Positions 14,277-21,204 of a stretch of DNA of 49,716 nt are shown one piece after another. The DNA lies in assembly GCA_012719355.1 (NCBI GenBank), contig JAAYAM010000159.1, forward strand, positions 1 through 49,716, given 5' to 3'. The notes under the pieces are model-generated. The model saw only the letters and a list, made by a program, of their open reading frames with translations. It did no database searches and was not told the origin of the DNA. A program made the position numbers and the translations under genes. Origin of the DNA: Acidobacteriota bacterium (GTDB lineage: Bacteria > Acidobacteriota > UBA6911). Each line of letters starts with the position of its first letter. Positions within the stretch are counted from its first letter, which is position 1.

Positions 14277-16073
14277 CTATGGCCGGACCGACCTGGTCTT
14301 TACCGTCTCCTCGATTATTCTCAAGAATTCCTCCAGGGGCCGGCTTCCTTCATCCCCCTGAAAGCGGTTCCGCACCGACACCGTACCAGACTCCACTTCC
14401 TTGTCCCCGACAACCAGCATGTAGGGGATCTTCTGTGTCTGTGCCGAGCGGATCTTGTAGCCCATTTTCTCATTCCTGTCGTCAATTTCCACCCTCAGAT
14501 CAGCCTCGGTCAGTCGAGACGCAACTTTGCGGGCGTACTCATGATGACGCTCAGCGATCGGGATCACGACCACCTGAACGGGGGCCAGCCAGACTGGAAA
14601 GGCGCCCGCATAGTGCTCGATCAGGACGCCCAGAAAGCGTTCCACAGATCCGAGAAGCGCGCGGTGCAGCATTACGGGCTGGTGCACCTGTCCATCAGAT
14701 CCCGTATAGCCAAGATTGAACCGTTTCGGCAGTGTAAAATCAAACTGCACGGTGGAAAGCTGCCAGGGGCGTCCGATAGCATCGATCAGCTTCACATCGA
14801 TTTTCGGACCATAGAACACCGCTTCCCCTTCCATCCTGGTCCACTCTATGCCCCGTGCGCGAAGCGACGCCGTCAGCGCCTCTTCCGCCATATGCCAGTC
14901 TTCTTCAGTACCGGCATAGTCTTCCTTCTTCGACTCGTCCCTCACCGAGAGCTCAACCTTGTACTGGTCAAATCCGAAGCTCTTCATTACGAAAAGCACC
15001 AGGTCAATCAGCGCCGAGATCTCGTCACCCACCTGCTCGCGCGTGGAAAAGATATGGGCATCATCCTGAGTGAAACCGCGCACCCTGAGGAGGCCGTGCA
15101 GCACGCCGCTCTTCTCGTAACGGTATACCGTTCCGAATTCGGCGAAGCGCAGCGGCAGATCACGGTAGCTGCGCATCTGCGACTTGTATATCTGGATGTG
15201 TCCCGGGCAATTCATCGGTTTGAGAACAAATTCATCCTCATCGATGTTGAAGACGTACATGTTCTGGCGATAGTAGTCGTAATGCCCGGAGGTCTTCCAC
15301 AAGGCATCCCGCGCCACGTGCGGGGTCGTCACAAATTCATAGCCCCTGCGATACAGTTCTTTCCGCAGAAATTCCTCGACAAGCAGCCGCACACGGGTCC
15401 CTTTCGGATGCCAGAACGCGAGCCCGGGTCCGGCCTCTTCCGAAATGCTGAACAGATCGAGATCGCGCCCGAGCTTCCGGTGATCCCGCTTCTTGGCTTC
15501 TTCCAGCTGCGTCAGATACGCTTTCAGTTCTTCAGAAGTCAGGAAAGCCGTCCCGTAGATGCGCTGCAGCTGCTGGTTGTGCTCGTCCCCTTTCCAGTAG
15601 GAGCCGGCCATATTGAGAACGCGGAAGCTCTCCGGATCAATCTGGGAAGTCGACACCAGGTGCGGTCCCGTGCAGAAATCGACGAAATCGCCCAGCCGGT
15701 AGCATGAGAGCCTTTCACCCGCCTTCTCCTGAATGAGCTCGACCTTCAGGTGCTCACCCTGTCCGGTGAAATACTCTATCGCCTCTTCCTTCGCTATTAT
15801 GGAAGGTTCGTACTTGAGGTCCATGGATGCCAGTTCCCGCATCCGTTTCTCTATCTTCTGCAGGTCCTCTGCGACAAACCCTTGGGGACGTGCAAAGTCG
15901 TAGTAGAAGCCGTCGCTTATAGCCGGCCCGATCCCCAGGTGAGTGTCCGGGAAAAGGCTGGTGACAGCCGCTGCCATCAGGTGCGAGGTGCTGTGACGGT
16001 AGATTTCCAGCGCGGCGTTCGCATCAGCCACTTCGCCTACCGTTCCGTCTGCATATACAATTTTTACTGACAT
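14277..16073 (-). CDS. thrS: Threonyl-tRNA synthetase, form without the TGS domain
   Basis: Class II synthetase that charges tRNA-Thr and edits mischarged Ser-tRNA. The 598-residue product is about 45 residues short at the N terminus: after a short strand MSVKIVYADGTVGEV it runs almost at once into the editing domain (YRHSTSHLMAAAV), so the TGS domain is missing. A stop codon (TAG) two codons upstream of ATG 16073 rules out a longer start. The editing site is intact: HxxxH of HSTSHLM and the later Cys/His of FCTGPHL. Class II motifs include the zinc ligands in MNCPGHIQIY and VYRYEKSGVLHGLLRVRGFT, and the anticodon-binding domain is at the C terminus. It follows tRNA-Val on the same strand and is followed by infC. 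No T-box leader is seen. Confidence 0.96.
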   Translation of the reverse strand: MSVKIVYADGTVGEVADANAALEIYRHSTSHLMAAAVTSLFPDTHLGIGPAISDGFYYDFARPQGFVAEDLQKIEKRMRELASMDLKYEPSIIAKEEAIEYFTGQGEHLKVELIQEKAGERLSCYRLGDFVDFCTGPHLVSTSQIDPESFRVLNMAGSYWKGDEHNQQLQRIYGTAFLTSEELKAYLTQLEEAKKRDHRKLGRDLDLFSISEEAGPGLAFWHPKGTRVRLLVEEFLRKELYRRGYEFVTTPHVARDALWKTSGHYDYYRQNMYVFNIDEDEFVLKPMNCPGHIQIYKSQMRSYRDLPLRFAEFGTVYRYEKSGVLHGLLRVRGFTQDDAHIFSTREQVGDEISALIDLVLFVMKSFGFDQYKVELSVRDESKKEDYAGTEEDWHMAEEALTASLRARGIEWTRMEGEAVFYGPKIDVKLIDAIGRPWQLSTVQFDFTLPKRFNLGYTGSDGQVHQPVMLHRALLGSVERFLGVLIEHYAGAFPVWLAPVQVVVIPIAERHHEYARKVASRLTEADLRVEIDDRNEKMGYKIRSAQTQKIPYMLVVGDKEVESGTVSVRNRFQGDEGSRPLEEFLRIIEETVKTRSVRP

Positions 16074-16356: not shown

Positions 16357-17652
16357 CTACGCCACCTTTTTCGCCGGCGCACTTACGCCTGCCAGTATTT
16401 CGAGCGCTTTGTCCAGCTGGATCTTTTCAATCTTTTCCTGGATCTCGCGGTACCTGACAGGATCATTCCTGTCGTCTTTTGCTCCCTCGGGGCCAACAGT
16501 ATCGCGGTCGCCGTAATACGACTCGACCGCCAGTACCTGTCGCTGGTCATCATTCGGAGCTTCGACATCGGGGCTGATACCGGTCTTGGTTGCCGATTCG
16601 TCATCCTGGATGACCTTGCCGCCCGGCGTGTAGTATTTTGCAATGGAAAGGATCAGCAGCGCCCCGCTTTTCATCGGGATCGTCTTCTGAGCCGAACCGA
16701 CTCCAAAAGACTTCTCACCCACGACGGTCGCCCGTTTGCTGTCTTTCAGGGCGCCGGCCGCAATTTCGGCCGCGGCCGCCGTGGAACTGTCGATCAAAAC
16801 GACCAGAGGCATATCCGTCACGTGCTTTGACGGCACCGCATCCACTACCTCAACCTTCTCTCCCTGCCTGTTCTGGCTATAATAAATGGTTCCAGACTTG
16901 AGGAAGAGATTAGCCAGATCGGCCCCCTCCGAGGGGTTTCCGTCAGCGCAATCCCGCAGATCGAGGATAAGCTTTGCTGCACCCTTGGAAATCAGGTTCT
17001 TGAGTTTGATTCTCGCCTGCTCGGCCGAGCTGTCCGCAAGAGAAGAGATGTCGAGGAGACCGACCTGACCTTCGAGCATCCTGGAGACCACAGGCGTCGA
17101 GGTCGGGTTCTTGAAGATCATTTCGAAATCCAGCGGCTTGGGGCTGGAACTCCGGAACACCGTGAGTTTCACCTTTGTTCCGGGAACACCGTGCAGAAGG
17201 CTGTCCACCTCCATGATGCTTTTGTTTTCCACGCCCTTGTCGTTGATCGCCACAAGGTAGTCGCCCGGTCTTATTCCCGCCTCGGCTGCAGCGCCATCCT
17301 TGTCGGTCGAGACTACATAGACGACATTCGACCGCTTCGAAAGAACCACTCCCGCTCCGGCTTTGCCGTTCTCCTTGCGCTTCTGCAGCTCTTCATACTG
17401 CTGCCGCGTCAGGAAAGTGCTGTACGGATCGAGGGCATCGATCAGTCCGCGCATTGCTCCATCCTGAACGGCATTCATGTTTGGGACTTCGACATAGTCG
17501 TCGTTGATGCGGTCGAGCACCTCCATAAACACCCGGAGTTCCCTGTATGCATCGTCCTGCGCCACGACCTTGCCATAGAACGCAGCCGTCAGGCCGTACA
17601 CCGCTATCAGAAACGATCCGAGAAAGACCAGTACTTTTCCCTTGTGAGACAT
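16357..17652 (-). CDS. CtpA-like S41/PDZ protein, predicted catalytically inactive
   Basis: A 431-residue homologue of carboxy-terminal processing proteases. An N-terminal membrane helix (about residues 7-28) precedes the S41 helical part, the PDZ domain (near residues 95-180: AGIRPGDYLVAIND) and the core. In active enzymes the core reads SASASEI with the nucleophile three residues before Glu, and a catalytic Lys 25 residues later in TSFGKG. Here these read STAAAAEI and KSFGVG. The nucleophile position is Ala293, the Lys position is Val318, and the spacing of 25 is kept. Asp304 is retained. I checked both codon runs against the DNA (GCC and GTC). It is therefore likely a pseudoprotease anchored to the periplasmic face, perhaps a peptide-binding adaptor. 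It has its own TATAAT promoter and diverges from ruvX. GGGAGG precedes the ATG. Confidence 0.88.
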   Translation of the reverse strand: MSHKGKVLVFLGSFLIAVYGLTAAFYGKVVAQDDAYRELRVFMEVLDRINDDYVEVPNMNAVQDGAMRGLIDALDPYSTFLTRQQYEELQKRKENGKAGAGVVLSKRSNVVYVVSTDKDGAAAEAGIRPGDYLVAINDKGVENKSIMEVDSLLHGVPGTKVKLTVFRSSSPKPLDFEMIFKNPTSTPVVSRMLEGQVGLLDISSLADSSAEQARIKLKNLISKGAAKLILDLRDCADGNPSEGADLANLFLKSGTIYYSQNRQGEKVEVVDAVPSKHVTDMPLVVLIDSSTAAAAEIAAGALKDSKRATVVGEKSFGVGSAQKTIPMKSGALLILSIAKYYTPGGKVIQDDESATKTGISPDVEAPNDDQRQVLAVESYYGDRDTVGPEGAKDDRNDPVRYREIQEKIEKIQLDKALEILAGVSAPAKKVA

Positions 17653-17689
17653 CAGACCTCCCAGCCGGTCGGGGTAAAAACCATTAGAT

Positions 17690-17716
17690 ATTATAGCAAT
17701 CGCGTCCCCCTTTCAA
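17690..17716 (-). promoter_or_regulatory. Candidate promoter of the CtpA-like gene
   Basis: On the minus strand a perfect TATAAT (17695-17690) has TTGAAA (17716-17711) 15 bases upstream, or TTTGAA with a 16-base spacer. Transcription would begin about 30 bases before the start codon at 17652. Confidence 0.55.
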
Positions 17717-17823: not shown

Positions 17824-18243
17824 ATGGAAAAACAGGGCCGCCTGCTCGCGATAGACTACGGCGCAAGGAACATAGGGCTCGCCTGCAGCGACGAGTTGAG
17901 GCTTCTGGCACAGCCGTTGCCTTCCATTCCTAATGCCGGGAGGAAGGAGCTGGTGAGAAAACTCAAGGCCGTCATAGTCGAACTCGACATACGGGAAGCG
18001 CTTCTGGGAATGCCGCTCAACATGGACGGGACTCGGGGCGAGTCCGTCCTCAAAATGGAGCAGGTTCTCGAAGACCTGAAGAAGGATTTGAAAATCCCGT
18101 TGACAGGAGTAGATGAAAGGCTTTCCACTATAGAGGCTCTCGAAATCTGGCAGACGATGAATCCCCGGCAGAAGAAGAGGTACCGGTCGGTAGATTCGCT
18201 TGCTGCCGCATTGATACTGGAACGATATCTGAAGGAACGTTAG
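17824..18243 (+). CDS. ruvX: RuvX/YqgF family RNase H-fold nuclease
   Basis: Putative Holliday-junction resolvase or pre-16S rRNA 5'-end nuclease with an RNase H-like fold. The 139-residue product has the family pattern LLAIDYGARNIGLACSD with the first acidic residue Asp11, then EALLGMPLNMDG, the conserved VDERLST, and the C-terminal VDSLAAALILERYL with the last acidic residue. The ATG is not preceded by a Shine-Dalgarno, consistent with a leaderless start. mltG follows after one base, a common pairing in bacteria that ties this gene to the same transcript. Confidence 0.93.
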   Translation: MEKQGRLLAIDYGARNIGLACSDELRLLAQPLPSIPNAGRKELVRKLKAVIVELDIREALLGMPLNMDGTRGESVLKMEQVLEDLKKDLKIPLTGVDERLSTIEALEIWQTMNPRQKKRYRSVDSLAAALILERYLKER

Positions 18244-18244
18244 C

Positions 18245-19267
18245 GTGCGACGCATATTTCTCTCTATTGCTCTGGCACTTGCAATTGTTTTCGTCATCTC
18301 CCTTGCCGGCACGGCATTGTGGCTGCGCTCGGAACTGGTGAGCTCTTATTACGGGTCTTCAGAAAGCGAAATGATTGTCGAGGTTCCCCGCCACGTTTCC
18401 ACCAGCAGGATCGCGGACATGCTCGTCGATTCCGGCATTCTGCGCCGTAAGCTTCCGTTCCTGATCTACCTGCGGCTCACGGATAAAGGACACGCGGTCA
18501 AGGCGGGCGAATACAAATTCGCCGGCCCGGTGTCGCCGGTCGAAGTGGCCAGGAGGCTGACCAGTGGAGATGTTTTCTTCCGATCCATTACTGTCCCTGA
18601 AGGACTGACCGCCCAGGAGACGATTGAACTGCTGGCGAGAAACGGCATGGGGGATCTCGCCGAAATGGAACAGCTCCTGCTGAAGACGGAGCTGGTCGCG
18701 GACATCGATCCCGCAGCGAAGAACCTTGAAGGATACCTCTTCCCGGAGACCTATCGCTTCGGCAGCAAAGCGGATTCCGAACTCATCATCAGAACAATGG
18801 TGAATCAGTTCCGCACGAGAATAGCCAGAGCGACACAAACATATCCCTTGCCTGACGGATGGGATATACGAAGCATCGTCATCCTGGCGTCGATGATCGA
18901 GAAGGAAGTCAAGAAAGCGGAAGAGGGGCCGATCGTGGCATCCGTCTTCACCAACCGTCTCGGCAAAAGAATGCCGCTCGCCTGCGACGCCACGATCATC
19001 TACGCGATGAAGCTCGCCGGCACGTACGAAGGGCGCCTGGGACGGGCGGACCTTATCATGGAGTCGCCATACAACTCCTACATACATCCCGGCCTGCCGC
19101 CCGGCCCCATTGCCAATCCCGGGGATACTTCACTTTGCGCCGCTCTGAATCCGGCACAAACCGACTACTACTACTATGTCTCCCGGAATGACGGGACGCA
19201 CCAGTTCTCGAAGAACTTCGCTCATCACCAGGTAGCGGTAGACAGATATCAGAGATCGTTACGATAA
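18245..19267 (+). CDS. mltG: Endolytic murein transglycosylase MltG
   Basis: Inner-membrane lytic transglycosylase that cuts nascent glycan strands and sets their length. The 340-residue product begins at GTG 18245, one base after the ruvX stop. It has an N-terminal membrane helix (about residues 4-26), a LysM-like subdomain (GEYKFAGPVSPVEVARRL), and the YceG core with LEGYLFPETYRFG. The catalytic Glu219 lies in ASMIEKEV, the motif that holds Glu218 in E. coli. The C-terminal NSYIHPGLPPGPIANPG is a strong family mark. Length and order match the family. Confidence 0.95.
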   Translation: MRRIFLSIALALAIVFVISLAGTALWLRSELVSSYYGSSESEMIVEVPRHVSTSRIADMLVDSGILRRKLPFLIYLRLTDKGHAVKAGEYKFAGPVSPVEVARRLTSGDVFFRSITVPEGLTAQETIELLARNGMGDLAEMEQLLLKTELVADIDPAAKNLEGYLFPETYRFGSKADSELIIRTMVNQFRTRIARATQTYPLPDGWDIRSIVILASMIEKEVKKAEEGPIVASVFTNRLGKRMPLACDATIIYAMKLAGTYEGRLGRADLIMESPYNSYIHPGLPPGPIANPGDTSLCAALNPAQTDYYYYVSRNDGTHQFSKNFAHHQVAVDRYQRSLR

Positions 19268-19320: not shown

Positions 19321-19731
19321 TCACTCTCCCGAGCCCGGTTCCTCTTCGCCGACCGGCTCCTGGCGTTTCTTCAATTCGTCCGGCAGAATCTGGTTGATTC
19401 TGCGGGTAAGCTTCAGAAAAGAGGCCAGGGTGCTGGTGGTTCCCCACTGTTCGGCCGCTTCAGCGTCAAGAGGCTCGTCCTCATTCATGTCGAGCATGTG
19501 AAGGAGGTGCTCTTCTTCCGAACGGTTGTGAGGGCAGTCAAGGGCGAGGCAGTGAGAGGCCGTCTGGCATGACTCGTCGTCGACATAAATCTCGTGAATG
19601 AATGCGCGCCGGACCGGATCGTGGCCGATATACATATGGCGCACCTTCCCGGCGTATCCGCAGACTGCCACCGCAAAAGTCTGCCCTGAGGGCAGACTAT
19701 AATCTATCCAGTTGGTGGGATATTTTGGCAT
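19321..19731 (-). CDS. Hypothetical protein with a Cys/His cluster
   Basis: A 136-residue protein that I do not recognise. No signal peptide or membrane segment is visible. Residues 54-69 hold three Cys and two His (SCQTASHCLALDCPHN), a spacing that could bind a metal, and another Cys is near residue 24 (VAVCGYAGKVRHMYIG). The C-terminal third is strongly acidic (many Glu). It converges with mltG and stands alone on its strand before the beta-barrel gene. The start ATG 19731 is the only clear choice. It looks like a real gene from its codon use, but nothing supports a function. Confidence 0.6.
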   Translation of the reverse strand: MPKYPTNWIDYSLPSGQTFAVAVCGYAGKVRHMYIGHDPVRRAFIHEIYVDDESCQTASHCLALDCPHNRSEEEHLLHMLDMNEDEPLDAEAAEQWGTTSTLASFLKLTRRINQILPDELKKRQEPVGEEEPGSGE

Positions 19732-20586: not shown

Positions 20587-21204
20587 GTGCGTCCCAAACT
20601 GCCAGTAACACGTTACGTAAGAAACCATTTGATGCGCATCGCTCTGCTGACAGGCCTCGCGCTGACCTGCGCCATGCCGGCCGGCGCCCAGTCGGGAAAA
20701 GCCAGCCTCCCCGATCCCGTCAAGTTCCTGTTCAAGTATGATATCGTTGGAAATGTGGTCTATTCGGTGCTGAACGATATGGGGTTCAGGATAGAGCTCG
20801 ACGACAGAAAGGGCGGAAGGATCGTTACCCGGCCTTACGAATTCATCAGCGGTTCACTCACCGCGAGTGAAGTCGACAAGGTGGCGATAAAGAAAGACAC
20901 CCTCACCGGCAGCTGGCTCAAGGCAAGATATTCAGTGGAAGCCGTGCTCGAGATAGTGTCGCCTGCCGAAACCATGGTGACGATACGAACAGATATGGAA
21001 GCTCTGCAGCGGGAAATTGACGGGACCGAGAAATGGGTACCCATCAATTCCAGGGGCATTATTGAAAGACGCATTCTGGGGAGAATAAGCAACGGGCTGC
21101 TGCACAATGATTCACCTGTAGAGGAAAGAAAGGGCTTCTGGGGACAGCGCCCTCAGCCCGTAGACCCGCGTCAACCCAGGTTCCCCAGACCCCCGTCCAG
21201 GTAG
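20587..21204 (+). CDS. Exported protein of unknown function
   Basis: A 205-residue product starting at GTG 20587 with AGGA 7 bases upstream; an internal ATG at 20632 is the alternative. A signal peptide ends near AMPAGAQ (about residue 35 from GTG). The mature part has an alternating beta-rich region (FRIELDDRKGGRIVTRP, then SVEAVLEIVSPAETMVTIRTDM) and a long helix with GIIERRILGRIS. The pattern resembles helix-grip or lipoprotein-type domains such as BamC, but I cannot claim homology. The tail is rich in Pro and Arg. It precedes the FxLYD gene on the same strand. Confidence 0.6.
   Translation: MRPKLPVTRYVRNHLMRIALLTGLALTCAMPAGAQSGKASLPDPVKFLFKYDIVGNVVYSVLNDMGFRIELDDRKGGRIVTRPYEFISGSLTASEVDKVAIKKDTLTGSWLKARYSVEAVLEIVSPAETMVTIRTDMEALQREIDGTEKWVPINSRGIIERRILGRISNGLLHNDSPVEERKGFWGQRPQPVDPRQPRFPRPPSR

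Follow-up and report, generated by a model that had tools for sequence, protein, structure and literature searches.

The window, the whole stretch of 49,716 nucleotides analysed here from an Acidobacteriota bacterium, encodes a CtpA-like S41 protein in which both residues of the catalytic Ser-Lys dyad are replaced, and this loss is shared by a clade of homologues that is maintained under purifying selection. Judged by its sequence, the window protein is very probably without Ser-Lys peptidase activity. The best explanation, to which we assign a probability of roughly 0.6, is that it is a non-proteolytic CtpA homologue with an adaptor role in the periplasm, in some form of peptidoglycan remodelling. 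Literature searches restricted to open-access full text brought up no bacterial S41 pseudoprotease. Almost all genomes sampled from this major soil phylum have the protein, which probably carries the annotation of a normal S41 peptidase.

Replacement of the Ser-Lys dyad

The gene and its product have the following features.

16357-17652, minus strand: S41/CtpA-type pseudoprotease gene, 431 amino acids, a real open reading frame with its ATG at 17652
17657-17662, minus strand: Shine-Dalgarno sequence GGGAGG, 4 nt before the ATG, read directly
17688-17716, minus strand: promoter-like TTGAAA-17-TAATAT in the 171 bp that separate the gene from the divergent ruvX; a weak candidate, since such elements are no more frequent than by chance
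17575-17634, minus strand: N-terminal hydrophobic segment, residues 7-26
17407-17556, minus strand: N-terminal dimerisation-type region, residues 33-82, conserved with Pseudomonas aeruginosa CtpA
17422-17424, minus strand: Tyr77 at the position of CtpA His84 (alignment; PMC11021448)
17134-17382, minus strand: PDZ domain, residues 91-173, with the carboxylate-loop Gly101 retained
16561-17064, minus strand: S41 core domain, residues 197-364
16939-16950, minus strand: degenerate oxyanion motif CADG, residues 235-238 (NPGG in active enzymes)
16774-16776, minus strand: Ala293, replacing the nucleophile Ser
16699-16701, minus strand: Val318, replacing the general-base Lys
16687-16689, minus strand: Gln322, the retained equivalent of Gln331 (alignment; PMC11021448)
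16393-16419, minus strand: C-terminal helix QLDKALEIL, which may resemble the C-terminal dimerisation helix of Ctps (PMC8764530)

The window protein matched Peptidase_S41 (7e-37) and PDZ_6 in Pfam, as well as TIGR00225 prc in NCBIfam, the last barely over the cut-off; its S41 and PDZ domains stand in the CtpA order, which places it by fold and sequence in S41A (Ctp/Prc). Residues 7-26 are probably an uncleaved signal anchor, since a V-x-A cleavage-like motif is missing in five relatives of the same genus. An AlphaFold model made from a two-row alignment had a pLDDT of 37.5 and was unusable.

The best solved relative is P. aeruginosa CtpA, the S41A protease of the LbcA-CtpA system (E 3e-49 by sequence, 1e-91 by profile), with which the window protein shares the NDR-PDZ-S41 order. 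The first-pass annotation had placed Ala293 and Val318, 25 residues apart, at the nucleophile and general-base positions, and the alignment of this region, which runs without a gap, agrees: Ser302 corresponds to Ala293, Lys327 to Val318 and Gln331 to Gln322. No alternative Ser and Lys were seen at the site. In P. aeruginosa CtpA, S302A alone or K327A alone abolishes activity in vivo, while the effect of Q331A is minor and that of H84A moderate (PMC11021448). Unlike that enzyme, the window protein has replacements at Ser302, Lys327 and His84, a decayed NPGG motif and a likely N-terminal anchor; among the marks of an active S41A peptidase it thus lacks the dyad and NPGG and keeps the Gln of the triad. 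Asp304, which had been counted as a kept residue of the site, is present; however, it varies between Asp, Glu and Gly in the family, and the current description of the CtpA active site, Ser-Lys plus Gln or His, does not include this Asp (PMC11021448).

Spread and conservation across Acidobacteriota

A scan of contigs returned a single relative, the MAG Acidobacteria bacterium isolate nzgw75 (63% identical). In the genomes sampled, mostly draft assemblies of Acidobacteriota, all 60 relatives and all 247 genomes of the phylum sample matched the protein or its profile, a match that by itself does not separate pseudoproteases from active Ctps. The dyad positions were also read locus by locus. The Ser-Lys pair is missing in 101 of the 104 orthologous loci read, which cover 51 families and 86 genera. 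Lys is missing in every relative of the same genus and family as the window genome and Ser in all but four of 105 pseudoprotease rows, so that the loss is due neither to chance nor to sequencing error. A set of sister sequences with nothing but intact catalytic residues was thus not seen. The Ala/Val pair itself does not mark a clade; loss of the dyad is consistent, but the exact pair is particular to the window genome, since Gly is usual at position 293 (84%). In a few relatives position 293 is Ser, but Lys is missing. At position 318 almost anything is found: among 310 alignment columns none varies more, whereas active enzymes always have Lys there. Across the clade Tyr mostly takes the place of CtpA His84, and the oxyanion NPGG has decayed. 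By contrast, an LDLR motif, Glu296, Gly312, Gly317 and the glycines of the PDZ domain are near-invariant.

Close pairs without the dyad have dN/dS values of 0.08-0.28, compared with 0.135 for one active pair. The fold is maintained under purifying selection and is not decaying, and pseudogene decay is ruled out by dN/dS well under 1. Consistent loss in related genomes together with purifying selection is what the first-pass annotation had expected of a functional pseudoprotease, and its reading of a whole-fold pseudoprotease is well supported, also by the loss across 51 families and the decay of other active-site features.

The window genome has three S41 genes, namely the window gene, a gene for a 589-amino-acid Ctp with intact Ser, Lys and Gln (G000:C274) and a larger, more distant one. 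The active Ctp shares the S41/PDZ fold and approximately 31% identity with the pseudoprotease, from which it differs in its intact Ser-Lys-Gln, its greater length, its separate clade and its lack of linkage to the cell-wall genes tested. Where this was examined, other genomes with the pseudoprotease also have active Ctps with Ser, Lys and Gln. When columns 293 and 318 are left out of the tree, the pseudoproteases form one clade apart from the longer active Ctps of the same genomes (SH-aLRT 99), and support for the clade is 100, in a tree of three clades, once the P. aeruginosa and Helicobacter pylori CtpA are added and long branches removed; these values come from quick searches, and the tree is unrooted and cannot alone show orthology to P. 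aeruginosa CtpA. An extra S41 paralogue (L087:1413-2717, genome G014), with Ser kept and Thr for Lys, forms a long basal branch of the clade.

Three genomes of family f33, which lie within the dead clade, have Ser, Lys and Gln together with an intact GG oxyanion pair (L144:5724-6950, L145:5243-6442, L148:5539-6804). One loss and one regain suffice for this pattern, while a tree without regain requires ten losses of the dyad. The nearest relatives of these proteins have Gly-Arg and Gly-Lys at the dyad positions; therefore, a stepwise return of the dyad is possible. They make a natural test case for the return of activity to a dead protease.

Gene neighbourhood of the pseudoprotease

Three conserved genes flank the window gene.

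14277-16073, minus strand: thrS, conserved downstream neighbour
17824-18243, plus strand: ruvX, divergent conserved neighbour
18245-19267, plus strand: mltG (YceG lytic transglycosylase), the sole copy in the genome

A cell-wall gene, or ruvX counted with the mltG to which it is linked, adjoins the pseudoprotease in 90 of 104 loci; because neighbours are inherited by descent, this amounts to about three independent associations, not 90. Such neighbours were found at none of 11 active Ctps. By type, an M23/EnvC-type gene lies upstream at 37 loci and yibQ downstream at 15, mltG is present at 47 and a class A PBP gene at 14. The PBP gene follows the pseudoprotease on the same strand in family f18 (L095:7587-9818 and 13 other loci of this family). 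Not every neighbour fits a role in the cell wall: ruvX and thrS are not cell-wall genes.

In P. aeruginosa, ctpA lies in the operon envC-ctpA-PA5135(yibQ/sddA), in which EnvC activates amidases and CtpA controls cell-wall hydrolases; SddA, the E. coli orthologue of PA5135, is a peptidoglycan deacetylase (PMC12569750). The same envC-ctpA-yibQ order is found in distant acidobacterial relatives, as an M23 gene, the pseudoprotease and a divergent polysaccharide deacetylase gene. Where their C-terminus is visible, the M23 neighbours end in LYFEIR instead of the zinc-binding HLHFE. EnvC likewise ends in a degenerate motif in place of HLHFE. A second group has this M23-pseudoprotease-deacetylase block head-to-head with ruvX-mltG and upstream of thrS. 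In the class to which the window belongs, EnvC is gone and the pseudoprotease directly faces ruvX-mltG, with ruvX divergent in 48 of 50 loci. The 14 loci that have both EnvC and mltG link the two arrangements.

Unlike P. aeruginosa ctpA, the window gene thus has ruvX-mltG and thrS as neighbours, and neither envC upstream nor yibQ/sddA downstream, although relatives of the same clade have them at the 37 and 15 loci given above. Searches of the window genome for PF04748 (SddA/YibQ) and the FtsX ectodomain gave no match, and no clear EnvC-type M23 protein was seen in it. This genome may therefore lack the EnvC/FtsX division module, and the pseudoprotease seems to have outlived its ancestral partners there.

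Possible role and alternatives

The proposal that the protein binds or scaffolds in the periplasm stays at the level of a plausible role, which the gene neighbourhood narrows to peptidoglycan remodelling. The protein would probably derive from the CtpA of an envC-ctpA-sddA/yibQ operon, as gene order suggests, and the dyad would have been lost in a single event, at the root of Acidobacteriota or close to it. The N-terminal anchor is predicted to lie in the inner membrane, with the PDZ domain and S41 fold in the periplasm. There the protein would most likely still oligomerise and capture partners by its PDZ groove and the substrate tunnel or cleft. Cell-wall enzymes would then be held, positioned, activated or restrained, not degraded. 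MltG is the likeliest candidate partner in the window lineage, a tentative assignment; in other lineages EnvC/amidase, SddA or class A PBPs may take its place. The MltG C-terminus was rejected as a PDZ ligand, the C-termini being neither conserved nor hydrophobic as such a ligand might be. An adaptor of this kind would point to non-proteolytic control of peptidoglycan enzymes by the Ctp fold. EnvC offers a parallel as a degenerate peptidase fold that regulates cell-wall enzymes, with an EnvC-type gene adjacent to the pseudoprotease in 24 families; its fold is M23/LytM, in contrast to S41 here. More speculatively, a dead, binding-only version may have taken over throughout the phylum from the proteolytic CtpA encoded in the EnvC division operon, with synthases and lytic enzymes of the cell wall (MltG, class A PBPs) as its targets, and f33 may later have rebuilt the dyad in this dead scaffold, a possible re-evolved protease.

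The main competitor of the adaptor, and a rather improbable one, is that the protein serves the cell's own active Ctp as a regulatory subunit or decoy, forming mixed oligomers with this Ctp of 550-590 amino acids or shielding its substrates. Ctps dimerise via an N-terminal region that is conserved in the pseudoprotease (PMC8764530), and an active Ctp is present in the same genomes. However, the two genes were not found together (0 of 11 active Ctps), the low identity between the two Ctps of the window genome and the absence of the cell-wall context around active Ctps argue against a shared complex, and the C-terminal helix motif occurs in only about half of the family. Binding of a small or polymeric ligand, such as a glycan or lipid, in the old active-site cleft is less probable still. 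IRBP (retinol-binding protein 3), a eukaryotic lipid carrier built of tandem modules, uses an S41-type fold for binding and not for proteolysis; its repeats bind retinoids and match the family profile (3.2e-39), which indicates that the fold can be a binding module. Nevertheless, the retained PDZ domain points to protein C-termini, and residue 318 in the cleft lacks the conservation expected of a ligand contact.

That the protein is still a peptidase with other catalytic residues is very unlikely. Gln322 and Asp304 are retained, and some relatives have Ser at 293 or, in f33, all of Ser, Lys and Gln; but a conserved replacement nucleophile or base is missing, with mostly Gly at 293 and the least conserved column at 318, NPGG and His84 are lost, and either single substitution kills CtpA. 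A decaying gene or an assembly error has nothing in its favour apart from the missing residues, and the open frame, the ribosome-binding site, the low dN/dS and the presence of the family throughout the phylum make it the most remote of these readings.

A downstream TPR protein on the same strand, reminiscent of LbcA, was observed in eight genomes (L146:3376-5130, L129:7208-9991 and six others); it was rejected as an LbcA-like lipoprotein partner, with no convincing lipobox in the seven inspected. Finally, two proteins without a Pfam match are conserved beside mltG: one of 136 amino acids (window 19321-19731) in six relatives of the same genus and one of 205 amino acids (window 20587-21204) in approximately 20 related genomes.
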